From the IMG/VR virus record IMGVR_UViG_3300018933_000010, positions 1-34,216 of that record: DNA of 34,216 nucleotides; one strand, given 5' to 3'. Positions within the stretch are counted from its first letter, which is position 1. The number at the start of each line of letters is the position of its first letter. This DNA comes from a virus. The position numbers and the translations under genes are program-made. Shown one piece after another: positions 14,837 through 33,608 of the stretch. The notes under the pieces were generated by a model. That model did no database searches. It had not been told where the DNA came from and saw only the letters and a program-made list of their open reading frames with translations.

Positions 14837-15243
14837 ACGTCCCTCTCCTGGCAGAAGCGCACGACGGCCTGCTCGCTGAAGCCGTAGAACCAGCCGCGGA
14901 TCACTTCACTGTCGCTGCGGGGCGCAGGGTCTCCCCACTCGACGGCGTGACACACGCGCGGGTCCGTCGACCGGCGCACGCGCACCGACGGGAAACCCTC
15001 CAGGCCGGCGAGAGCCGCGCGTAGCTGGCCCACCATCGCGAAGTCGTCCACGGCTAGGTAGCCGCCGCGGCGTCGGCCGCCGACCGGCACCGCGAGAAAA
15101 CCAATCCCATCAACGACGACCACGACGCCGAAATCGATCAGCGACGGATCGTGCAGCCGCTCCCGGTACCAGGACGCCTCCCACTCGTCGCGGGCATCAG
15201 GAGGCCGCACCTCGACCACCCCCCGCCTGCGGCGCACCCTCAC
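14785..15243 (-). CDS. hypothetical protein, tandem paralogue B (152 aa)
   Basis: Closely similar to the next gene upstream: shared DEWEASWYRERL, DPSL, FLAVPVGG, GFPS, HAVEWGDP and FYGF in the same order, roughly half the residues identical by eye. The C-terminus is extended by a basic tail (ARRGRSATVRRHSW). GTG 15243 overlaps the paralogue's stop (GTGA). The conserved Trp/Arg/Asp set suggests a folded domain of about 120 residues. I recognise no named family. Confidence 0.68.
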   Translation of the reverse strand: MRVRRRRGVVEVRPPDARDEWEASWYRERLHDPSLIDFGVVVVVDGIGFLAVPVGGRRRGGYLAVDDFAMVGQLRAALAGLEGFPSVRVRRSTDPRVCHAVEWGDPAPRSDSEVIRGWFYGFSEQAVVRFCQERDVWPARRGRSATVRRHSW

Positions 15244-15659
15244 GAGTCGACGGCCGCGCCGGCCGTACTGTCCCCGAGTTCGTCCGCGTTGGCCCGGTCG
15301 AACCGCTCCGCGTCGAAGCCGTAGAACTCCTGGGTTTCGCGGTCGCCCGCATCCCGCGGCACCGGGTCACCCCATGCGACGGCGTGCGACACGTACGCGT
15401 GCGTCGACCAACGGAGCCGAAGGGACGGGAATCCGGGGCGATCCTTCAGCGCGTCCCGCAGCCGCCACAGGTGGTCCCTGTCCTCGACGGGGATGTAGCC
15501 GGCGCGGCGCTGCCCACCGACCGGCACCGCGAGGTAGCGCACCCGGTCGATAACGATGACCACGCTGCTGTCGAGCAGCGACGGGTCGGCGAGCCTTTCG
15601 CGATACCAGCTCGCCTCCCACTCATCCAGCACCCCAGGGCACTGCACTTCCACGGCCAC
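15240..15659 (-). CDS. hypothetical protein, tandem paralogue A (139 aa)
   Basis: First of two tandem paralogues. It has a strand-rich core (SVVIVIDRVRYLAVPVGG) between the conserved SWYRERL helix and HAVAWGDP, and a Ser/Asp-rich acidic tail where the other copy has a basic one. GTG 15659 has AGGAGAG six bases upstream, so this copy carries the ribosome site for the pair. The opposite tail charges hint that the two products could interact with each other; this is speculative. Confidence 0.68.
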   Translation of the reverse strand: MAVEVQCPGVLDEWEASWYRERLADPSLLDSSVVIVIDRVRYLAVPVGGQRRAGYIPVEDRDHLWRLRDALKDRPGFPSLRLRWSTHAYVSHAVAWGDPVPRDAGDRETQEFYGFDAERFDRANADELGDSTAGAAVDS

Positions 15660-15783: not shown

Positions 15784-16467
15784 TCACCGGCTCGTGCCGA
15801 CCAGGCCGGCGACGCGAGCGAACTCTGCCTCCAACCGGTCGCTGCCGAGGCGGGCAAGGTCGTGGCCCAGATTGGCGGACCGTACGTCGACCAACTGGCC
15901 AACGAGTCGGTGCGCGACGGTCCACGGCGACAACGGGGTGTCGTACTCGACCCTCTGGAGGATGGGCCGCTGCGGCACGGTCGTGCCGGGATGGTGGACG
16001 ACACCGGCGACCCCCCACGCCGAGACCTGCCCCACCCATGCCGCCGTCCACTGGCCGCGCAGCTCGGGGCAGAGCTGGGTGGCGATCGCAGCGCACGGCA
16101 CGCACACGGGCGGGCTCGTCGTGCGCTCCCCTTCACGGACCGGGCCGCCGGCGTTGCGCAGCACGAAGAAGTGCGGCCCATCCGGGTTCGGCGGCGCCGT
16201 ATTGCAGACCTGGCACAGCATGTCGAGCATGGCCCGGCGCTGCCGGTAGGGGTGGACCAGGTGCGGGCGCGGCACTCCCCGCCGGCGCTTCGGCTTGAGC
16301 ATCGGGCGGACCCACAGCTGCCCGAACGAATCCCGGTCGTGAGGAGTCTCGTCCGCGTAGCCCAGGCCGGGGCGCCGTCGGCTGAGCACGAGCTGAGGGT
16401 TCAGCGTGCGTTCCTCGCTCCAGGCCGCGATGTGCGGGACGATGCCGGGCGGTACGGGCGGCAACAC
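15784..16467 (-). CDS. hypothetical zinc-binding-like protein (227 aa)
   Basis: The middle carries CQVC (about residue 85) and CVPCAAIATQLC (about 122), a spacing of paired CxxC typical of a treble-clef or HNH-like zinc site, but no conserved catalytic His is evident. GTG 16467 has GGAAGGA six bases upstream. The Trp-rich stretch GQWTAAWVGQVSAWGVAG follows. It is a monocistronic unit with its own terminator. Family not recognised. Confidence 0.65.
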   Translation of the reverse strand: MLPPVPPGIVPHIAAWSEERTLNPQLVLSRRRPGLGYADETPHDRDSFGQLWVRPMLKPKRRRGVPRPHLVHPYRQRRAMLDMLCQVCNTAPPNPDGPHFFVLRNAGGPVREGERTTSPPVCVPCAAIATQLCPELRGQWTAAWVGQVSAWGVAGVVHHPGTTVPQRPILQRVEYDTPLSPWTVAHRLVGQLVDVRSANLGHDLARLGSDRLEAEFARVAGLVGTSR

Positions 16468-16743: not shown

Positions 16744-17091
16744 CTACGCGTACTGCCTGAGGCAGCCGAGGAGACTCAGGCGCTCCAGTAGGTTGTTCGC
16801 GGTCCACGCCATGCGGCGCACATGCCCGACGGCTCGCCAGTGGCTACCGGGCGCCTCCTCGACACGCACGTCACGGGCCTGCTCGATCAGCGCCGCCGTC
16901 TCCTCGTCGATGCCCGCTCCGGCGGCGACCGCGATGTCCACGAGCCGCATCAGGTGGCCGCGTAGCCGCTCAGCTATGCCCTCGATCTCGTCCTCGGCTG
17001 GCTCCACCTCGTCGAGCGCCGTGCCGACGTCATCGAGCAGAGCGCGCCCGTCGAACGGGGTCCACCGGCCGGCGGCCGGTAGCACGCTCAC
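16744..17091 (-). CDS. DUF6415-like helical protein (115 aa)
   Basis: An all-helical, acidic protein whose shape (ERLRGHLMRLVDIAVAAG, then a central acidic helix, then HVRRMAWTANNLLERL at the C-terminus) recalls a Streptomyces family of unknown function that I would compare with DUF6415. GTG 17091 overlaps the upstream stop (GTGA). It is the last gene of the small operon divergent from the XRE/TPR regulator. The family match is from memory of the pattern only. Confidence 0.6.
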   Translation of the reverse strand: MSVLPAAGRWTPFDGRALLDDVGTALDEVEPAEDEIEGIAERLRGHLMRLVDIAVAAGAGIDEETAALIEQARDVRVEEAPGSHWRAVGHVRRMAWTANNLLERLSLLGCLRQYA

Positions 17092-17696
17092 TGCGCGCCC
17101 TTCTCGCGCAGCGAGCGGCAGCCTTCGGTGACCAGCTGCTCCACCTCGTCGAGGTGGCACAGATCACCGGGCGTCTCCATCGGCATGCACCAGTACGCGC
17201 GCCCGCGCGGCTCGGTGCGCTGCACCGCCGGAATCCCCAGGAGACTGTTCCCGCCGAGCAGGCCCACCCCCGGGCACTCCCGGTCGGTCCACGTCCACTC
17301 CGCCTCACTGGGCACCAGGGCGTAGTACATGTGGGAGTGCAGGTCCATGAGCACGGCGCCGCCGTCGAACCACTTGTTCATGCGCTCGTCGACATCTCTG
17401 AGGACATCCGTCTTCAGCGCCGCCCACACCACCCTTGCCGGGATGCGCACAGCGGAGAACCGCTGGCCGCAAGGCAGCAGCGCGATTCCGTCCGGCTGCC
17501 GCCACTGCTCTCGCGCCTCCTCCCGGTCCCGGGCTGCGGCCAGGAGCCAAAGCTTCACTGCTACTTGCTGCTCGGTGCGGGCGATCGGGTGCCCCAAGAC
17601 CGCTCCCTGCGCGCCCGGTCCGGTGTCGCTCGGCCGGACGGGGTGCTCCGTTCCAGATCTGGTCATTCGTGAGATTCCTGCTCTGGCCATGGTCAC
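17088..17696 (-). CDS. primase/polymerase-N-terminal-like hypothetical protein (202 aa)
   Basis: The order of motifs (DGIALLPCGQRFSAVRIP, then GGAVLMDLHSHMYYALVP, then LGIPAVQRTEPRGRAYW) resembles the short Streptomyces proteins usually annotated as bifunctional DNA primase/polymerase N-terminal-like, which lack a helicase part. The acidic metal ligands of true prim-pol domains are not clearly present, so activity is doubtful. The start is GTG 17696, which overlaps the stop of a 40-aa upstream frame; ATG 17690 is also possible. It sits in the operon divergent from the regulator at 17950. Confidence 0.6.
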   Translation of the reverse strand: MTMARAGISRMTRSGTEHPVRPSDTGPGAQGAVLGHPIARTEQQVAVKLWLLAAARDREEAREQWRQPDGIALLPCGQRFSAVRIPARVVWAALKTDVLRDVDERMNKWFDGGAVLMDLHSHMYYALVPSEAEWTWTDRECPGVGLLGGNSLLGIPAVQRTEPRGRAYWCMPMETPGDLCHLDEVEQLVTEGCRSLREKGAQ

Positions 17697-17949: not shown

Positions 17950-19341
17950 ATGAACGATCACTCGCGCGTGCGCAACAACGCGCTCGAACAGGCCCTAAAA
18001 CAAGCCGATCTAACTTATGAACAGCTCGCGGCGGCGGTCCGAGTGGTGGCCGCCGAGGCAGGCGAGATTCTCCGTACCAACCGCTCCGCCGTGGCCCACT
18101 GGGTGAAGGGTCAACGACCGAACCCCCAGACCGCCACGTACATTGCCGAAGCGCTCTCGCGCCGACTGGGCCGCGTTCTGCGGCCCAGCGATCTCGGATT
18201 GTGCGACCCCCACCGGGACCAGCCCCCGCAGGATCTGGGCCTGGCGCTGGGCGCCGATCCGGTGGACGTGCTGATGCGGATCGGGGAGGCGGACATTCAC
18301 CGGCGGAAGTTTCTGACAGGGGCGGCCTACAGCGTCGCAGCGGCTGCCCTGCCGCTGGGCATAGACCAGGCCATTGAGTACGAGCAGCGGGCGCAGGCCG
18401 GCCACACGCGGGCAGGCATGGCAGAGATCGCGGCCGTCCGCGACGTCGTCGAGATGTACACCCGCATCGATGAGCGCCACGGCGGCCAGCACGGCCGCAG
18501 CGCCGTCGTCCAGTACCTGCGATCGGATGTCGCGGACCTGTGCCGGGCCTCGTTCGACACCGCCGAGCACCGCCGCGCCGCCCTGAGCGCCGCGGCCTGC
18601 GTGGCCTACCTGTGCGGCTGGAAAGCCTACGACGCCGGCGAGCACGGTCTGGCCCAGCGCTACTACCTCCAGGCGTACGCCCTGACGAAGGAAGCCGGGG
18701 ACGAACTCCACGCCGCGTGGATACTGCGGATCATGGCGCACAACGGCATGGACGTCCGCAGGCCTGAGAGCACGGTGGACCTGGCGGAGGCGGCCCTGGC
18801 TCGCGTCCAGGGCCGCGTGGACCCGGCCACGGAAAGCCTGTTCGCCGTCACCCGCGCCCGCGCGCTGGCCCACGCCAGGCGCGGCCCGGAGGCGGTCACG
18901 CAGATCCGCCAGGCGCAAGACCTGGCGCTGCGCGGCGATGAACAGGAGTTGCCGTTCTGGGCCGCCCTGTGGGGCTCCCCCCGCGCCACCGTCGCCAGCC
19001 ACGCTGCCAAGTCGCTGCGGGAGCTGGGCGACCACGCCAACGCCGAGAAGCATTACGCCACCTCGGCCCGCGTCCGGCCCCACGGGGGCCGCTCCGCCCA
19101 GCGGATCACTGCGCTGACTCTCGCCGACCAGGGCCGCGAACAGGCCGCCCAGGGCCACCTGGAGCAGGCATGCGCCACCTGGGGCCACAGCCTGGACATG
19201 TTCACCGGCGTGCGCTCCCAGCGCGCCACCAAGCAGGTCCGCGGCATCCGCCGCTCTCTGCAGGTGTTCGAGCGACGTGGCGTCAAAGCAGCCGTCGACC
19301 TGGACGAGCGCGCCCGCGCCTGGCAGACCGCGTACGCCTGA
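17950..19341 (+). CDS. XRE-type regulator with TPR-like sensor region (463 aa)
   Basis: Residues about 10-70 are a helix-turn-helix (LTYEQLAAAV ... NRSAVAHWVKGQRPNPQTATYIAEALSRRLG). A linker contains IHRRKFLTGAAYSVAAAALPLG, a hydrophobic stretch after RR that imitates a Tat signal but is internal. Residues about 165-440 are repeated helical hairpins rich in Ala/Leu with TPR-like spacing (YYLQAYALTKEAGDELHAAW, ANAEKHYATSARVRP). This layout is common in Streptomyces regulators that sense a peptide or small molecule through the TPR region; the ligand is unknown. GGGAGG lies upstream of the ATG. It is divergent from the coupled operon ending at 16744. Confidence 0.82.
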   Translation: MNDHSRVRNNALEQALKQADLTYEQLAAAVRVVAAEAGEILRTNRSAVAHWVKGQRPNPQTATYIAEALSRRLGRVLRPSDLGLCDPHRDQPPQDLGLALGADPVDVLMRIGEADIHRRKFLTGAAYSVAAAALPLGIDQAIEYEQRAQAGHTRAGMAEIAAVRDVVEMYTRIDERHGGQHGRSAVVQYLRSDVADLCRASFDTAEHRRAALSAAACVAYLCGWKAYDAGEHGLAQRYYLQAYALTKEAGDELHAAWILRIMAHNGMDVRRPESTVDLAEAALARVQGRVDPATESLFAVTRARALAHARRGPEAVTQIRQAQDLALRGDEQELPFWAALWGSPRATVASHAAKSLRELGDHANAEKHYATSARVRPHGGRSAQRITALTLADQGREQAAQGHLEQACATWGHSLDMFTGVRSQRATKQVRGIRRSLQVFERRGVKAAVDLDERARAWQTAYA

Positions 19342-21665: not shown

Positions 21666-21929
21666 CTACACCCTCCTGGACAGGCTCGCGCTGTGCGGGT
21701 CGCCGAACGCGCGGGCCACCATGCCCTTGAGGAGCGCGCCTACCGCGCCGATCGCGGCGCCGCCAGCGGCGTACCACATGGACGCGTCCGCGGCCTGGGC
21801 CGGGACGAACGCTGCCACGAAACCGTAGGCGGCGCTGGTGATGACCCTCTCGAACAGGTCCCGCGCGTACGTCTTGGCGCTGCGCACGATCACGCCACCG
21901 TCCGGGAGCCGGAAACTGCTGGTGCTCAT
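21666..21929 (-). CDS. holin, r1t-type
   Basis: An 87-aa protein with two hydrophobic helices (about 30-47 SAAYGFVAAFVPAQAADA and 51-72 MWYAAGGAAIGAVGALLKGMVA). The ending ALLKGMVARAFGDPHSASL is a pattern I associate with r1t-type holins of actinophages. Holins make the membrane lesion that releases the endolysin. ATG 21929 overlaps the endolysin stop by 4 bp. The gene pair and order are standard. Confidence 0.85.
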   Translation of the reverse strand: MSTSSFRLPDGGVIVRSAKTYARDLFERVITSAAYGFVAAFVPAQAADASMWYAAGGAAIGAVGALLKGMVARAFGDPHSASLSRRV

Positions 21930-23044
21930 GAGGTGGACTCCTTCCAGACCAGGGCCGTCAGGACGGCGCTGGCAACCTCGATTCCGCCGGCGCTCTGGTT
22001 GAGCAGCCGGACGCGCATGGAGCGGCCCGGGGCGAGCCGCTTGACCAGGGGCACCACGGCGTAGGCACCGCCCGCGCTGCCGATCACCTCGTGGATCGGG
22101 TGCAGCGTGCGCAGGGTGTTGCCCTCCCACTCACTCATGCGGACCTGCACGACGTCGCCGACCGGCAGGCCCACCAGGCGCAGGGACAGGGAGCCGGTGA
22201 ACCGGGCTGGGCCGACCAGGACCACCTCCCCGTTGGTGGTGTGGTGACCGGCCCCGTCAGCCCACTCCTCGGTGAACGCGATCTCGTCCCACAGGTCGGG
22301 GGCCAACTGGTACCCGTCGATCCCGACGTTGAGGTAGTACGGGCCAGTCATGGTGGTGGCCTCCTGGGGGATGCTCGCCTGCTGGGGGCTCCAGCTCGCC
22401 GGGTGCCGCAACCGCTCCGCGACGTCGGCCCGCAACTGGGCCATGGTGAACGCGAACCGGCCGCGCCGGCCGTAGCCCTCCACCGGGCCGCGAGGGTCGA
22501 CCTTGCCCTCCACGCTGGTCTCCAGGTGGCCGGCGACGCTCCCGGCCCCCCACCCGTGGTGGCGGCAGATGGCCGCGTTGCAGCGCACCCAGGTGTCGTA
22601 CTGGGCGCGCGTGTAAGTGTCCGTGCCGTTGCCGAGGTTCTCGACTTCCAGGCCGTAGAGGGCATCGTTGCCGTCCACCGTTCCGGACGCCTTGGACGGC
22701 GCGGGGATCGGCGTCTCGGCCACGATCGCGTCGAAGGCGTTGCGGGCGGCCAGGCTGGCGTGGTTGGCGCGCCCGTCCGCGACGAGGACCAGGCGGCCGT
22801 CCTTGGGCAGCAGCGCGTGCGCCAGGGGTGCGGGGACCGCCGAGCCCTGCCCCTGGAAGGCGATCATGGTGAGGGAGTCCCGCCCGGCGGTGTGGTGGTT
22901 GAGAACGCCGTGGACCGGCCCGAAGGTCTTGCCGGTCGCGGCGTCCCGGCCGCGGGTGGTCCAGCCCTCCAGCTCCCTGTAGGGCACGCCCTCGGCGCGC
23001 AGCGCGGCCCGCCACTGGGCCGGGGTCATCGGGGTGGTGCTCAT
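21926..23044 (-). CDS. endolysin, N-acetylmuramoyl-L-alanine amidase (372 aa)
   Basis: Residues about 40-215 form an Amidase_2/PGRP-type domain: VLNHHTAG (H50), HASLAARNAF, GLEVEN, and GHLETSVEGKVDPRG (H173, D183 as the third zinc ligand). It cleaves the lactyl-L-Ala bond of peptidoglycan. Residues about 245-372 are a beta-rich domain (LWDEIAFTEEWADGAGHHTTNG ... SLSLRLVGLPVGDVVQVRMSEWEGN) that looks like a jelly-roll/tail-fibre-type module instead of a LysM or SH3 wall-binding domain. Coupled to the tail genes upstream and to the holin downstream. No signal peptide. Confidence 0.9.
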   Translation of the reverse strand: MSTTPMTPAQWRAALRAEGVPYRELEGWTTRGRDAATGKTFGPVHGVLNHHTAGRDSLTMIAFQGQGSAVPAPLAHALLPKDGRLVLVADGRANHASLAARNAFDAIVAETPIPAPSKASGTVDGNDALYGLEVENLGNGTDTYTRAQYDTWVRCNAAICRHHGWGAGSVAGHLETSVEGKVDPRGPVEGYGRRGRFAFTMAQLRADVAERLRHPASWSPQQASIPQEATTMTGPYYLNVGIDGYQLAPDLWDEIAFTEEWADGAGHHTTNGEVVLVGPARFTGSLSLRLVGLPVGDVVQVRMSEWEGNTLRTLHPIHEVIGSAGGAYAVVPLVKRLAPGRSMRVRLLNQSAGGIEVASAVLTALVWKESTS

Positions 23045-23328
23045 TCCTGCACCTCCTGCGGGGTGTGGCCGCTCAGGCGCCGAGCGGTGGCCTCCGGGAT
23101 ACCGGCGGCCAGCAGCGCCTCGTAGTCCTCGGCGCGCTGGCTCTGCTCACTGGCACGGGTCGCGGCCTCGTCCGCCTGGCGCTGGGCCTCGATCTCGGCC
23201 AGCCGCGTCTGGTAGTCCTCTGCGGTGATGAGGGTGACGCCAGGCGGGTGGGTGACCTCCTCGACACCGACCACGGTCCGCACGCCGACCGACTCGTCGG
23301 GGTACTTGTAGTAGAACGTCTCTTCCAC
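23041..23328 (-). CDS. small tail-fibre partner protein 2 (95 aa)
   Basis: A short strand-rich start (FYYKYPDESVGVRTVVGVEEV) is followed by a charged helix (DEAATRASEQSQRAEDYEAL) and the ending LLAAGIPEATARRLSGH. This ending matches the partner encoded at 24096 (LLEVGLPDATARGLSGY), so the two are paralogues. Each follows a fibre gene of a paralogous pair, suggesting a chaperone or an add-on subunit for that fibre. ATGA overlap with the endolysin start. Confidence 0.75.
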   Translation of the reverse strand: MEETFYYKYPDESVGVRTVVGVEEVTHPPGVTLITAEDYQTRLAEIEAQRQADEAATRASEQSQRAEDYEALLAAGIPEATARRLSGHTPQEVQE

Positions 23329-23340
23329 GGTGGCCCCTCG

Positions 23341-24036
23341 TCAGGTGGTCGGGTTGGAAATCACCCAGGCGCGGAGCGTGGCCTGGATGCGGGTGTAGGT
23401 CGCGCCGCCGGCGCCGCGGCTCATGTTGATGTCCATCGTGTGCAGGCGTGTCTCGCCCGGGGCGAGCGTGAGGTTCGTCAGCTTGTTGACCTGCACGTGC
23501 TCGCGGCTGATGGTGCTGTTGCCGGTGTTGGCCAGGTGCACCATGTCGTCCGTGTCGATGCCCACCCCGCCCTCGGAGTTGGGCGGCAGGTTCAGGTCGG
23601 CGTCGACTTCCTGAAAAAGGATCACCATCGCGGTCCGGCAGGGGTCCGGGTTGACGATCGGCAGGTCCAGCGTCGCCACTACCTCTTCCGGCTGCGGCAC
23701 GAGCGGCGCGGCGGGGAAGGACCGGCCGAGGCTGTTCTGCTGGAACCTGGACCGTACGGGGGGCTCTCCACGCAGCACACCGGAGCTGTCGCAGTAGACG
23801 CCCGCCGCGGCGTCGTCCACGTCGCACGGGTAGGGCCAGACGCCGACCGCCACGGCCAGCGGAGTACCGGTACTGCCGTCGCCGGTGAGACCGCACGCCG
23901 TGGCGATCGCGGCGCCGCCCGTGCCGCCGGCGCTGATGATGTAGGGGTTGGAGGGGGAGCCGTTGCCGTCCACCGTGACGCCGGGGCCAGCGGTGACGGC
24001 GCAGGTGCACCGACGGCTGCATCCGCAGTTGGTCAA
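23341..24036 (-). CDS. minor tail/fibre protein 2, Cys-rich N-terminus (~231 aa)
   Basis: The N-terminus has a CxCxxxCxC motif (NCGCSRRCTCAV) followed by GPGVTVDGNGSPSNPYIIS, a strand pair typical of phage tail adhesins, then WPYPCDVDDAAAGVYCDSSG. The remainder is beta-rich with a late galectin-like segment (VQVNKLTNLTLAPGE). The same blocks occur in the same order in the protein encoded at 24473. Start TTG 24036 has GGGAG eight bases upstream; GTG 24045 would add three residues. It is preceded by the conserved 20-bp element. Probably part of the receptor-binding tail tip. Confidence 0.82.
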   Translation of the reverse strand: MTNCGCSRRCTCAVTAGPGVTVDGNGSPSNPYIISAGGTGGAAIATACGLTGDGSTGTPLAVAVGVWPYPCDVDDAAAGVYCDSSGVLRGEPPVRSRFQQNSLGRSFPAAPLVPQPEEVVATLDLPIVNPDPCRTAMVILFQEVDADLNLPPNSEGGVGIDTDDMVHLANTGNSTISREHVQVNKLTNLTLAPGETRLHTMDINMSRGAGGATYTRIQATLRAWVISNPTT

Positions 24037-24065
24037 GGAGATCACTCCCGAAATGGGGGTTCCTC

Positions 24066-24085
24066 GCCCGGACCTAAACCAGCGG
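24066..24085 (-). promoter_or_regulatory. conserved tail-region element, copy 1
   Basis: Minus strand CCGCTGGTTTAGGTCCGGGC, 20-29 nt before the start of the fibre gene at 24036/24045. Identical over 20 bp to the copy at 25342. It may be a phage late promoter element or an mRNA processing site. TAGACTC lies a short way upstream here and at the second copy. Confidence 0.65.
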
Positions 24086-24095
24086 CGTAAGGAGT

Positions 24096-24461
24096 CTAAC
24101 CGGCAGCTTGTTCGGTTGAGGGGCCGTCATAGCCGGACAGCCCGCGCGCGGTCGCGTCCGGCAGACCCACTTCCAGCAGGTCCTGGTACTGCTGGAGCCG
24201 CGCCGCCTCCTCCGCCGCCTGGATCTGTGCCAGGCGCGCCTCGTGGGCATCGTGCATCTGGCCGCGCAGCTCCTGGTATTGCTCCTGCGTCAGGGTGGTG
24301 GAGCCCTCCGGCAGCAGAGGCTCCGTACCGAACGCGGCAGTGATCTGGCCGATATGGCCGTCCGGGAACCGGACGTAGTACACGGTCGGTTCCGGTGCCG
24401 TATCTCCGCCGCCAGGCCACGGCCACGGCCACCCGGGCAGCTCGGGGAGAGGCTGGGACAT
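24096..24461 (-). CDS. small tail-fibre partner protein 1 (121 aa)
   Basis: A Pro/Trp/Gly-rich N-terminus (PGWPWPWPGGG), then strands (TVYYVRFPDGHIGQITAAFG), a coiled-coil helix (QYQELRGQMHDAHEARLAQIQAAEEAARLQQ) and the ending LLEVGLPDATARGLSGY shared with the paralogue at 23041. ATG 24461 has GAGGAG seven bases upstream; a GTG at 24476 overlaps the upstream stop but is less well placed. Likely a chaperone or tail-fibre attachment protein for the fibre encoded just upstream. Confidence 0.78.
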   Translation of the reverse strand: MSQPLPELPGWPWPWPGGGDTAPEPTVYYVRFPDGHIGQITAAFGTEPLLPEGSTTLTQEQYQELRGQMHDAHEARLAQIQAAEEAARLQQYQDLLEVGLPDATARGLSGYDGPSTEQAAG

Positions 24462-24472
24462 GGGCGTGCTCC

Positions 24473-25309
24473 TCACAGGCTGATCAGCAGGGTTCGCAGA
24501 ATGAAGTTGATGCTGTAGTAGTAGGCGCCGTTCAGGCCCCGGCCGCCGGTCGCGCTGAGCGTCACCGGGATCGTCGCCCCAGGGGCGAGCGCGGACGCTG
24601 ACGGCAGGACCTTGCAGCTCTGGGCGTGCACGCCCACCATCGAGGACGTGCCGGTGTTGCGCAGGTAGAACGTCTCATCGTTCTGCTGCCCCACGGCCGC
24701 CGCGCCACCGGCCGGCAGCACCATGTAGATGTCGACTTCCCGCTCCGTGATCACCCACGCTGGGCGGCACGGATCCGGATTGGTCACATTCACTGTGAAC
24801 GTGTCCAGCACGGTGTTCTGCGCCACCGGGATACCGATGTCGGGGTACTCCCGCAGTTCCGAGTAGGACGGGAAGGTGATCATCCCGCGCGGCTCGGAGC
24901 GCAACCGCCCCTGGCTGTCGCAGTACACGCCCCCGCCGAAGTCATCGACACTGCACGGGTACGGCCAGGCCACGGTGCTGGCCCGCAGGGGGGCGCTGGC
25001 GGTGCCGTCACCGGCCAGCCCGCACTGGGTGAGCACGGCGCCGCCGGCCGTGGGCACGACCAGCCCGCCGTCCGCACCGACTGACAGGTTGTTCCCGGCC
25101 TGCCCGGATACATGGGCGCTGATCTCGCCGGTGGCCTGGTCGACCAGGATGCCGTCCCCAGCGGACAGGCACGCGCGTACGTCCTCGCACGGCACTTCCG
25201 CGCTGATGACGTACGGGTTGGCCACCGACCCGGACCCGCTCACGTTAACGTTCGTCCCGGCCTCGACCGCGCAGTTGCACGCGCCGCCGGCGCATCCGCA
25301 CCTCGCCAC
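24473..25309 (-). CDS. minor tail/fibre protein 1, Cys-rich N-terminus (278 aa)
   Basis: Paralogue of the protein at 23341. It has the same CxC-x4-CxC start (RCGCAGGACNCAV), SGSGSVANPYVIS, CGLAGDGTASAPL, WPYPCSVDDFGGGVYCDSQG, VTNPDPCRPAWVI and LRNTGTSS. It contains an extra block (residues about 35-80, CEDVRACLSAGDGILVDQATGEISAHVSG) absent from the shorter copy. GTG 25309 is the start homologous to the other gene; GTG 25318 is also possible. Beta-rich tail-tip adhesin is the likely role. Confidence 0.82.
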   Translation of the reverse strand: MARCGCAGGACNCAVEAGTNVNVSGSGSVANPYVISAEVPCEDVRACLSAGDGILVDQATGEISAHVSGQAGNNLSVGADGGLVVPTAGGAVLTQCGLAGDGTASAPLRASTVAWPYPCSVDDFGGGVYCDSQGRLRSEPRGMITFPSYSELREYPDIGIPVAQNTVLDTFTVNVTNPDPCRPAWVITEREVDIYMVLPAGGAAAVGQQNDETFYLRNTGTSSMVGVHAQSCKVLPSASALAPGATIPVTLSATGGRGLNGAYYYSINFILRTLLISL

Positions 25310-25341: not shown

Positions 25342-25361
25342 GCCCGGACCTAAACCAGCGG
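25342..25361 (-). promoter_or_regulatory. conserved tail-region element, copy 2
   Basis: CCGCTGGTTTAGGTCCGGGC on the minus strand, identical to copy 1, 23-32 nt before the fibre-1 start. It sits at the left edge of the only sizeable gap in the tail genes (25310-25525). Confidence 0.65.
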
Positions 25362-25398
25362 CTCACTACCGAGTCTATCGACGCCCTTACCGGACATG

Positions 25399-25520
25399 GT
25401 CCGGACGTGTCCCCAGCGCTGTCCGGACAGCGCGCGGCCACGGTCACGGCCGAGCATGCCGGACACTGGCTCACCTGCGTGGACACTGTCCGGACGCAAG
25501 GAGTCCGGGGGTGTCCGGAC
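25399..25520. repeat. cluster of GTCCGGAC palindromes (right cluster)
   Basis: GTCCGGAC occurs at 25399-25406, 25421-25428, 25488-25495 and 25513-25520. The second is extended to the 18-bp perfect palindrome GCGCTGTCCGGACAGCGC (25416-25433). TGCCGGACACTG-type degenerate copies lie between. The stretch is non-coding on the minus strand and follows the glycine-rich tail gene. It could be an operator array, a terminator region, or sites for DNA modification or packaging. Confidence 0.6.
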
Positions 25521-25525
25521 AGGGG

Positions 25526-26248
25526 TCAGCCGTACAGCTCCACGATGACGATGCCGGGACGGCCCACGGTGCCGTTGACGCTGTCGCCGTCACGAGCAAT
25601 CGCGCCGGCCGCGCCGCCGCCGTAGCCGCGGCCGGGGCCGCCGGAGCCGGTGGAGGAGCGCTGCCAGCCACCGTGCCCCAGGTGAGAATCTCCGCCCTCG
25701 CCGCTCTGTCCCTCACCGCCGTTGATCCGGATGGCGCCGCCGCCCGGGCCACCGCCGATCACGAGGTCACCCACGCCCGTGCCGGGCCCTGCGGTGCCGG
25801 TGTGACAGGTGGGCGTGTTGCCGGACGCCATGATGGCCTGGCCGCCGTGGCCGCCCAGCGCGGTGCACAGACCACCGAAAGAGGAGTTCCCGCCGGGGCC
25901 CCCGCCTTCCGTCGGCGTGCCGGCCTCCCCGCCCTCCCCCACCACGATGGTCTCCGCAGCGCCGAGCGCAGACGCCTCGATCAGCCGCTCCGCGTAGCCG
26001 CCGCCTGAACCCCCCGGCTGCGCCGTGAGCATGCCCGCCCCCGCGCGAGCCCCGGCCGCGCCGCCGCCACCGGCCTGGACCTTGACGAGCACCCTCGCCA
26101 GCCACGGGTATGCAGCCCTCTCGAACGTGTAGCTGCCCGGGGTCTTGAAGTACAGGGTCTGCCGCAGGCCCTGCTGCCCCGGGATGAGCGTCAGCCGCCC
26201 GTCGTCGCCCACCTCGAAATACTCGTCGTCCACGCACACCGATGCCAT
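25526..26248 (-). CDS. glycine-rich tail protein (240 aa)
   Basis: The N-terminal ~90 residues (VDDEYFEVGDDGRLTLIPGQQGLRQTLYF ... YPWLARVLVKVQAGGGG) are followed by a Gly-rich domain (95-240; GGGSGGGYAERLIEASAL, GEGGEAGTPTEGGGPGGNSSF, GGAAGAIARDGDSVNGTVGRPGIVIVELYG). This is the polyglycine-sandwich style known from phage adhesins. The last strand (GIVIVELYG) ends the domain as in such proteins. ATG 26248 with GGGAG six bases upstream, itself preceded by copy 3 of the conserved element. Probable receptor-binding protein. Confidence 0.85.
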   Translation of the reverse strand: MASVCVDDEYFEVGDDGRLTLIPGQQGLRQTLYFKTPGSYTFERAAYPWLARVLVKVQAGGGGAAGARAGAGMLTAQPGGSGGGYAERLIEASALGAAETIVVGEGGEAGTPTEGGGPGGNSSFGGLCTALGGHGGQAIMASGNTPTCHTGTAGPGTGVGDLVIGGGPGGGAIRINGGEGQSGEGGDSHLGHGGWQRSSTGSGGPGRGYGGGAAGAIARDGDSVNGTVGRPGIVIVELYG

Positions 26249-26274: not shown

Positions 26275-26294
26275 GTCCGGCCCTAAACCAGCGA
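26275..26294 (-). promoter_or_regulatory. conserved tail-region element, copy 3
   Basis: Minus strand TCGCTGGTTTAGGGCCGGAC, 26 nt before the glycine-rich protein start. It differs from copies 1 and 2 at a few flanking positions only; the core GCTGGTTTAGG is kept. Confidence 0.6.
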
Positions 26295-26310
26295 CTGACC
26301 AGCAGGGTAC

Positions 26311-29101: not shown

Positions 29102-32100
29102 CAGCCGGTCACTCCCGCCGCATGTACGAGGCGGGCCACGACGCGGTGCGCGGTGACCTGGCCGTTGCCTACCTCTCTGATCTCGAAGTGGTTGTTCTGG
29201 ATCACCGTCCGCCCCCCGCCCCCGGTGGTTCCGCCGCCCGTCCCGGCCTGGCGGGCGCGCTGCGCGCGGGTCAGCGGGATGACGTCCGCCCCGAGATCGC
29301 CGCCCACCCCGGCGAGGGAGGAGGAGACCCGGCCGGGCAGCAGGTCGAACTGGGAGCTGACGGCGTCCACCACCGCGCGGGCCGCCGCCGTGGCCGCGCG
29401 CATGATCCCGGCGACGCGGTCCACCAGACCGAGCTGGAGGCCCAGACCGGTGAAGTCGCCCAGGCGGCGCATCACCCGGGACGGGCTGTTGATGTCCAGC
29501 GCACTACGGATGGCGGCCTGCATGCCCTTGGCGATGTCGAGCATCAGCCGTTCGATGTTCTTGCGCTGGGCCTGCAACCCGGTGAGGAACCCCTTGCCTG
29601 CCTGCTTCCCGGCGTCGAAAAGAACGTCGGCGCTGGTGTTGCCCAGGTTGGTGGACGCCCTGGTGAGGTCCGTCTGAAGGCTGTTGAGGCGCTTCAGGCT
29701 GTCCTTGGTCGACCCGGCCAGGGCGGTGGCGATCTCGGCGCCCTGGACCGTGCCCAGGCTCACGATCTGCTGCAACAGGGCCTTGGACAGGCCGCGCTTG
29801 GCCAGGTTGGCCAGGTTGGCCTGGAAGGTCCGGACCTGCTTGACCGCGGCCTCCAGGCCCGCGGTCAAACCCTTGGTCGTCACCTTGTCGCTGCCCTGGG
29901 TGAGGTTCTGCAGGCTGAACGCCTGGGCGGTCTGGCTGGCGGTGTCGGCGGCGAACTTCCGCGCGTCCGCGATGCGCTTGGCCAGGGCATCGCGCTGGGC
30001 GGCCAGGGTCTGCAACCTCTTGTTGCCCGCGTCGAGCATGGCCACCAGCCGGTCGTCCAGCCGCGTGTTCTTCCCCGCGAACGCCTGCTGAATGGACCGG
30101 ACCAGCTTCTCCGTGGTGGCCTTGATCTGGGCGGCCGTACCGATCAGGCCCTCCACGAACCCGCGCCCGACATCGCGGCCGATCCGGGCGAACACCCGGC
30201 TTGGGCTGTGGGTCTCCAGGGTGTCGCGGGCGGCGATCGCCGCGGTGTCGGCCATCTCGGTGGCGGCCGTGGCGATCTGGCCGGCGTTGTTGCGGATGCC
30301 GTCGACCATGCCCTGCACCACGTTGGCGCCCACGCCGTCCAGCAACTGTCCGATACCGGCGAGCAGCGTGCGCAGGGTGGACACGGCGCCGCCCACCGAG
30401 GCGCTGCTGCTGGTCGTCGCCGCGGTGGCCGACACGGCCAGGGTGCGCGCCTGGCCGGCCAGGATGCCCAGCAGCCCGGACTGCTGGGCAAGCTGGGCCG
30501 CGCGCCTCGGGTTGGTCAGAGGGATGACCACCTCGGGCCCGGCCTCGCCGATCAGGGCGTGCGTCGGGCCGTACACAATGCCGCCCTTGGCGAACGGCAA
30601 GTACTTGCGCACCGCGCTGGGGATGCCGGACTTGATCTTGGACATGATCTGTCCGCCCACGTTGCCGATGGCGTTGAGGATGGCGCCAGGCAGGCCCCGG
30701 AACAGCGAAACAACCGCCGAGATCAGCCCGGACACGGCGGACCGCGCGCGGCTGGCGGCGCTGGTGAAGGCGCTGGCGATCCGCCCCGGCAGTGAGGCGA
30801 GCACCCCGGCCACGCGCCCGGGCAGAGCCCGGAAGAGACCCACGGCGGACGAGACGAAGCTGGTGATCCGCGCGCGGGCGGAGTTGAACGCGCCGGTGAA
30901 GGTGCGCAGCAGCGCCGAACCCAGGGAGGCCAAGGCGCCGGCGACCCGCCCGGGCAGCGTGCGGAAGAACCCCACCGTGGACGAGATCCAGCCGGACGTG
31001 GTCGATCGGGCGGAGGTGAACGCGCTGGTAAAGGTGCGCAGCAGCACCGAACCCAGGGAGGCCAAGGCGCCAGCGACCCGCCCGGGCAGCGTGCGGAAGA
31101 ACCCCACCGTGGACGAGATCCAGCCGGACACGGTGGACGTCACCGCGTTGAACCCGGACACGAAAGCGCTGACCAGCAGCGATCCCAGCGACAGCAGCCC
31201 GTTGTAGATGCGGCCTGGCAGCTCGGTGAACACGAACACCAGTCCGGCCACCACGGTCAGCAGGCCGATGATCGCGTACGCCACCGCGCTGGTGAAGGCG
31301 TTCAGGAGCAGCCCGGGTAGCGCGGCCAGCCCGGCGAGGATCCGCCCGGGCAGCGCCACGAAGAAGTCCACGACGCCCTGGACGGCGACCGACAACCCGG
31401 CCTTGACGGTCTCGAAGGCACCGACGAAGAAGGTGGCGATCGTGGAGCCCAGCGCGGACAGCCCGGCCGTGATCCGTCCTGGCAGGCTGGTGAAGAAGGC
31501 GACCGTGGCGTCGATGCCGGCCGAGACGGCCGCCTTGGTCTCCTCCCAGGCGCTGACGAAGAAGCCAGCGATCTGCCCGGCGGCGGTCCGCACGAACCCC
31601 ACCGCGGCCAGGAACCCGTCCCGCAGGGCCCGGCCCACGGCATCGACCACGCCGCGCACGGCGCCGAACCGCTGGTAGAGCAGGTAGATCGCTGTGGCCA
31701 GGCCGATGACGGCCACCACGATGACGCCGATGGGGGAGGCCACGAAAGTCGCGTTCAGGGCCAGCCACGCGCCCTGGAGCACCAGGAAGATGGCCTGTGC
31801 GGCCCGGATGGCCTTGACTAGGAGCAGCGTGGCCGCGGCTGCCGCGAGCACGGGCGCCGCGTAGTTGACGATCGGGGCCAGGATCTGGGCCAGCAGAGCG
31901 GCGGCAGGCGCCAGGGCCACGATGAGGTCGGCGAAGGATCGCGCCAGGGCGGCAGCTGCCTCGGCCACGGGCGGCAGGGCAGGGCCAAGGGAGAGCGCGG
32001 CCACCCCAAGCTGCTGGAAGACCACCGCTAGCTGAGGCAGCGCCCCCTGGACGGCAGCACCTACCTGGTTGATCGTCTGGACGATCACCGGTCCGAGCTG

Positions 32101-33587: not shown

Positions 33588-33608
33588 GCCCGGCCCTTAA
33601 CCAGTCGG
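33588..33608 (-). promoter_or_regulatory. conserved tail-region element, copy 4
   Basis: Minus strand CCGACTGGTTAAGGGCCGGGC, 26 nt before the tape measure start. It has GGTTAAGGG where the others have GGTTTAGGK. The gap that holds it, 33562-33648, also carries a short GGCCCCGCGTGGGGGCC hairpin. Confidence 0.55.

Follow-up and report, generated by a model that had tools for sequence, protein, structure and literature searches.

Fibre and partner cassettes behind a recurrent late-gene leader with candidate RNA hairpins in a temperate siphophage related to Streptomyces prophages

Repeated sequence elements ahead of genes have been described in temperate phages of actinobacteria. In cluster K mycobacteriophages, SAS is a 13-bp sequence (GGGATAGGAGCCC) at the Shine–Dalgarno position, and ESAS consists of 17-bp inverted repeats whose arms are stated not generally to support RNA pairing (PMC3203893). 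Stoperators are carried by cluster A mycobacteriophages and by R4-like Streptomyces phages, where they are duplex-DNA sites bound by the repressor of the phage (PMC10276819). Fibre genes paired with an assembly-chaperone gene, for example of family PF02413, are also known. Here we describe a leader element, termed E, and the two tail-fibre cassettes that it precedes in the IMG/VR virus record IMGVR_UViG_3300018933_000010 (34,216 bases; this whole stretch is called the window), which holds part of a temperate siphophage. Nearly every cassette opens with a -10 box, E, a Shine–Dalgarno sequence and a start codon near E+46. We propose that the cassettes, each made of a fibre gene and a small partner gene, are interchangeable units of the late operon, and that each stands behind a promoter-leader whose RNA hairpins would coordinate the late genes. 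To this reading as a whole we assign a probability of roughly 0.55.

A repeat search of the window returned an exact 21-nucleotide (nt) repeat at the head of both cassettes and an 86% copy before the glycine-rich tail gene (Table 1); four matches were reached in none of 100 shuffles. The element is GCCGCTGGTTNTGGGCCGGGC, written GC-CGCTGGTTNTGGGCCGG-GC. A scan of IMG/VR gave at least 119 stretches, and pooling with other loci gave at least 180 distinct sites. Each genome or record carries three to seven copies of E, in a single orientation per record, and the reversed control gave no match (n = 13, including Streptomyces genomes of 9–12 Mb). A host repeat was considered and rejected, the copies in host genomes being confined to phage contigs or a prophage stretch. 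The genes behind E, named partly by analogy, are the presumed capsid, head-region fibre-like, major tail, tail chaperone, tape-measure, further tail and glycine-rich genes, the fibre cassettes and the lysin. The window virus is related to prophages of Streptomyces genomes and to TurkishDelight, a cultured Streptomyces phage, and these relatives carry E ahead of the same genes as the window. TurkishDelight has six E sites, all ahead of late genes, and none was found in its early half (45–93.6 kb; 48.6 kb), including near the repressor. It is the sole recognisable carrier among 50,697 phage records, so the leader had little chance of being noticed; matches to E in other cultured phages look like chance. 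A search of Rfam release 15 gave no match at an expectation value of 1 or below in 13.2 kb and only a tRNA in eight related loci, and we found no description of the leader in the open-access PubMed Central literature.

Some individual leaders depart from the common form. In TurkishDelight (L155 in our numbering of loci), at 30549–30610, the annotated start of the gp33 'tailspike' (30557) falls inside E, and the likely start is an ATG about 47 nt after E (MARCGC...). Two E hairpins stand in tandem in leaders of L029, L087, L070, L111, L145, L044, L018 and L155:18515, the first sometimes with a CUUCGG loop; the leader of the TurkishDelight major tail protein is among these tandem forms. The Woodruffvirus Xkcd426 (L016, about 1934) has one E-like leader with another loop (CGTTAGG) before its major tail protein gene.

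Comparison of the copies of E points to a base-paired stem. Among 99 distinct sequences, pair -2/18 is GC in 85, AT in 8, GT in 3 and unpaired in 3, pair -1/17 is CG in 77, TA in 17 and TG in 5, pair 0/16 is CG in 75, TG in 15, TA in 6 and GG in 3, and pair 2/15 is CG in 98 and AT in 1. When a hand-thinned subset of 45 sequences was used, from which three GACTGG-type variants were left out, 100% of the cells were paired and 26 double changes were counted versus 7.8 in shuffled sets. Double changes occur in four of the six pairs, and the signal is clearly lost when the arms are slid by one column. An alternative inner stem (C2–G16, U3–G15) fitted more poorly, with 97.4% of cells paired and two covarying pairs, compared to 100% and four. 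The loop is 7 nt long, mainly UUNUGGG or UUNAGGK and more rarely YGYUAGG or CUUCGGG. On these comparisons, the assignment of E as an RNA element appears well supported. Besides the variant in the window (33590–33606), GACTGG forms are found in L029, L059, L067, L087 and L089.

A second hairpin is also predicted in the leader: the stretch immediately following E can pair with the ribosome-binding region, in a manner particular to each leader. The 3' arms are not alignable with MAFFT, and the hairpin was tested by swapping arms between sequences. In 101 non-redundant leaders, the native duplex reached -10.83 kcal/mol versus -8.91 ± 0.22 kcal/mol for arm-swapped ones (z -8.7; range over the tests, -8.0 to -8.7), whereas five control window pairs gave z values of -0.3 to +4.7. 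A count of the longest perfect stem showed a modest excess (7.48 versus 6.82). In the window, the E of cassette A also pairs with the region holding the GTG start of fibre A and, as read from the sequence, the E-side arm of cassette B pairs, with one mismatch, with the region holding the TTG start of fibre B. Since the 3' side of E is common to both hairpins, the hairpins compete, and the layout of the leader is, as judged from the letters, that of a translational switch.

Upstream of E, a TANNNT box lies at a distance of 8–16 nt in 139 of the 180 listed sites, versus 16 of 180 in an equal-sized control window. Its fifth base, left free in the search, is C in 88% (TANNCT), and no -35 conservation was detected across the listed E sites. 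With the usual -10 spacing, the transcription start would lie at most a few nucleotides from E. Most leaders with an assignable start codon have it at E+42 to +52. Each cassette would begin with its own late-gene leader, made of a -10-only promoter (TANNCT), the near-5'-terminal hairpin E and the second hairpin, which would form when the Shine–Dalgarno/start region pairs with the 3' side of E and a few nucleotides beyond it. The overlapping hairpins could not both form fully, and a factor, or folding during transcription, that favours E would open the ribosome-binding site; we infer both the direction and the trigger of such a switch. Most likely, E coordinates the late genes at the RNA level. 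More tentatively, and with somewhat less than even confidence, we suggest a phage-wide RNA regulon, in which one leader RNA would serve as a two-state ribosome-access switch under a phage or host factor and also as a standard socket for new fibre cassettes.

A sequence-only reading of the window had described two fibre genes, each followed by a small gene, and these reading frames are present on the - strand where it had placed them. Fibres A and B align at 41% over 182 residues in BLASTP (expectation value 9e-40), with 53% over the Cys-rich N-terminal 36 residues, and partners a and b at 38% over 88 residues (2e-15). This similarity far exceeds chance and the short common blocks from which that reading had started, and it confirms both pairs as paralogues and the two-gene unit as present twice. 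The difference of about 45 residues between the fibres, also noticed there, proved to be one shaft module (NPYVISA...CxDVRxCLSxGxGI..DGGL.P), of which fibre B has no copy, fibre A one and the second fibre of L004 two; long fibres, such as those of L051, carry further repeats. In the AlphaFold2 model of fibre A, the C-terminal beta sandwich is confident (about 138 residues, mostly at pLDDT 89–97) and the N-terminal half uncertain, while the partner is modelled as a beta hairpin, a 39-residue helix and short C-terminal helices. A fold search with the fibre head gave expectation values of about 1e-4 at best (VP2 of infectious bursal disease virus, Chlamydia Pgp3 and lambda gpJ), with TM-scores no higher than 0.28 by query or 0.46 by target; these candidates were set aside as too weak for a name. 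In both position and build, the fibres resemble actinophage tail fibres or receptor-binding proteins: gene order in the window and its relatives places them between the glycine-rich tail gene and the lysin, and the alignments and model show a conserved N-terminal part, a repeat shaft and a variable beta-structured head. The head would provide receptor binding, and it is plausible that the two cassettes confer two receptor specificities. Partner a most likely starts at ATG 24461, with the Shine–Dalgarno sequence GGAG, rather than at GTG 24476. In L145, L146, L149 and L151, the leader also precedes a second type of fibre-like gene, perhaps a head fibre, which is located upstream of the tail region, starts with MGKCCG or MAKCCG and has NPYVIS and the shaft repeats in common with the cassette fibres.

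The origin of the second cassette can be followed in the relatives. Cassette A is found in all eight of the closest, but a second cassette in L004 only. In the seven relatives without B, the leader that stands before B in the window is still present: in five it leads straight into the lysin, twice by way of a very short open reading frame, and in L002 and L003 it precedes an unrelated gene of about 103 residues. Outside the element, the B leader matches the L001 lysin leader at 73% identity and the A leader at 51%, and the second leader of L004 matches the L005 lysin leader at 79% and the A leader of L004 at 58%. In the fibre tree, A lies inside a clade of first-position fibres (support 100/98) from which B is excluded, and second-position fibres require several independent changes; the two partners belong to separate deep groups. 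The sequence-only reading had interpreted the two cassettes as a tandem duplication in place, followed by divergence. They are indeed adjacent, in the same order and clearly homologous, and local duplication does occur in the family, the two adjacent fibres of L051 being sisters (99/97). However, the absence of B from seven of eight close relatives, the lysin-like leader of B and the clade of A that excludes B contradict a plain tandem duplication; a recent copying of A in place was rejected, and we consider duplication in place followed by divergence highly improbable. Instead, B would have been gained at the lysin leader and inserted between leader and lysin. Among loci spanning the glycine-rich gene to the lysin, with repeated records merged, about 15 hold one cassette, six hold two and L137 holds three. 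Together with the trees and the local duplication in L051, these numbers indicate that cassettes are gained, lost and exchanged. Common leaders and a common fibre N-terminus would let cassettes join, leave or swap with expression and tail attachment kept. As to the partner, it lies directly downstream in 42 of 43 fibres, fibre and partner distances correlate (Mantel r = 0.62; maximum of 2,000 permutations, 0.15), and in two-cassette phages the difference between matched and crossed positions moves jointly for fibre and partner. These results agree with the earlier idea of a fibre-specific partner, at the level of sequence. The chaperone or attachment function that went with it received no backing, as searches of Pfam, PHROG, PDB and known folds gave nothing convincing for the partner (no fold match with an expectation value below 0.05), and PF02413 (Caudovirales tail fibre assembly protein) was absent from the 19 weakly matching Pfam families across 35 scanned partner proteins. 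A P-x-G...T-x-x-x-Y segment of the partner is reminiscent of tail fibre assembly proteins. Judged by its position and specificity, the partner most likely acts in the assembly or capping of its own fibre. If it were an independent small tail or lysis protein that only neighbours the fibre, its lack of a recognised family, the one fibre without a partner and the longer downstream protein of L014, partner-like at its N-terminus, would be accommodated; the almost constant position and the joint distances speak against this, and we regard it as unlikely.

Different roles for E itself must also be weighed. A stoperator-like operator, bound as duplex DNA by a repressor or activator of the phage, would suit an element that is repeated, in one orientation, at promoters of temperate phages, and intergenic stoperators do occur in R4-like Streptomyces phages (PMC10276819). 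Position 9 of the element points in the same direction: some phages have A there in every copy, and most others have T in every copy. However, the outer arms of E vary in complementary fashion among copies within one phage, covariation ties the second arm pair to the ribosome-binding region, as expected for RNA, the distance from E to the start codon is tightly fixed and the early half of TurkishDelight, repressor included, is free of E, and a DNA operator seems to us improbable. We are doubtful, too, that E is a processive antitermination site (nut- or put-like) or an mRNA-stabilising 5' hairpin, with the ribosome-binding-site pairing secondary. E is a small hairpin with a conserved loop, similar in size to boxB, and lies about where transcripts should start, ahead of late transcription units; its many copies, often ahead of units of only two genes, count against these roles, for which the strong covariation with the ribosome-binding region is unexpected. 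The proposed cassettes behind a hairpin leader face difficulties of their own. In the register drawn, the 0/16 pair is broken in three of the 99 distinct E sequences, those of GACTGG type. The stem of E has little predicted stability (about -3 to -5 kcal/mol), and at equilibrium it loses to the second hairpin, with a mean E-stem probability of 0.03 in the full leader and of 0.31 for its outer pairs in a nascent stretch. Since equilibrium favours the closed state, opening would require either a binding factor or folding during transcription, and no trans-acting factor for E was found. The fibre–partner distance correlation is partly phage ancestry, and the fibre without a partner is the first fibre of L051. 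Candidate factors conserved with TurkishDelight include those encoded in the window at 15784–16467, 17088–17696 and 17950–19341 (an HTH-TPR regulator). The first two are unannotated proteins between the lysis genes and the integrase, at 56% and 49% to TurkishDelight over the matched parts, and have no Pfam match.

The late genes run on the - strand in the order tape measure, two tail genes, small gene, glycine-rich tail gene, fibre A, partner a, fibre B, partner b and lysin, and the window also holds a phage-integrase-family integrase and RecT-like and exonuclease genes. The tape-measure gene contains 132-nt (44-residue) tandem repeats at 30758–31616, in several copies 63–98% alike, and 15043–15216 and 15480–15653 form a 174-nt direct repeat with 70% identity. 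The gap between the glycine-rich gene and fibre A (25400–25530) has many GTCCGGAC palindromes, and CTGTCCGGAC...GTCCGGACAG within it may form a terminator-like hairpin. In L005 (5662–8001) and L007 (5197–8001), an extra 2.3–2.8 kb separates these two genes.

Table 1. Features of the fibre locus and its leaders in the window
Feature	Position	Strand	Description	Basis
-10 box, glycine-rich tail gene	26304..26309	-	TACCCT	
Leader hairpin E, glycine-rich tail gene	26275..26295	-	86% copy	
Glycine-rich tail protein	25526..26248	-	upstream of cassettes	phrog_863, 2.7e-41
-10 box, cassette A	25372..25377	-	TAGACT	
Leader hairpin E, cassette A	25342..25362	-	core 25344-25360 = CGCTGGTTTAGGTCCGG	
Fibre A	24473..25309	-	278 residues, GTG start; Cys-rich N-terminus, one shaft module, C-terminal beta-sandwich head	BLASTP, alignment, AlphaFold2
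Partner a	24096..24461	-	121 residues, ATG start; beta hairpin, long helix, short C-terminal helices (DATARxLSGY)	
-10 box, cassette B	24093..24098	-	TAGACT, overlapping the partner a stop codon	
Leader hairpin E, cassette B	24066..24086	-	core 24068-24084; identical 21-nt repeat	
Fibre B	23341..24036	-	231 residues, TTG start at 24036; fibre A family without the shaft module of about 45 residues	
Partner b	23041..23328	-	95 residues, GTG start; stop overlaps lysin ATG	
Amidase endolysin	21926..23044	-	right after cassette B; same leader precedes lysin in relatives without B	
Variant E	33590..33606	-	GACTGGTTAAGGGCCGG; 45 nt before tape-measure start; no clear -10 box; 0/16 pair broken	

Several receptor-binding genes per phage were already known. 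Here the unit of exchange is visible, namely promoter-leader, fibre and partner, with one to three such units per phage among close relatives, and the array is a natural system in which to test how Streptomyces phages gain receptor specificities. The common leader, a candidate leader RNA that Rfam does not contain, offers a testable handle on joint activation of late genes. In layout, the nearest analogues of E are the cluster K elements: both are short one-orientation repeats that stand just upstream of the starts of some genes only, in temperate siphophages of actinobacteria, with a consensus that varies between subgroups. E nevertheless has another sequence than SAS and lies about 46 nt before the start, whereas SAS lies on the Shine–Dalgarno sequence itself. 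Both hairpins of the E leader show compensatory changes, in contrast to the ESAS arms, and E, unlike either element, is tied to late genes and a -10 box. Stoperators share with E that they are repeated, intergenic, oriented and found in temperate actinophages; E differs in its fixed distance before late-gene starts, its place downstream of a -10 box and its RNA-type covariation. Compared to fibre and assembly-chaperone pairs, the cassettes likewise have a small gene directly after the fibre, specific by co-inheritance, but the partner was unrelated to PF02413-type chaperones in every test, neither Pfam nor PHROG giving a noteworthy match and the fold searches none. The Woodruffvirus fibres phiSAJS1 gp32 and Mischief19 gp34 are homologous to fibre A (40.6% and 39.2%) and occupy the same place after the glycine-rich gene; they differ from the cassettes in being single copy, with no separate small partner and no E ahead. 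Altogether, the fibre array is a known kind of arrangement whose cassette structure is unusually clear here, and the leader is the more novel part.

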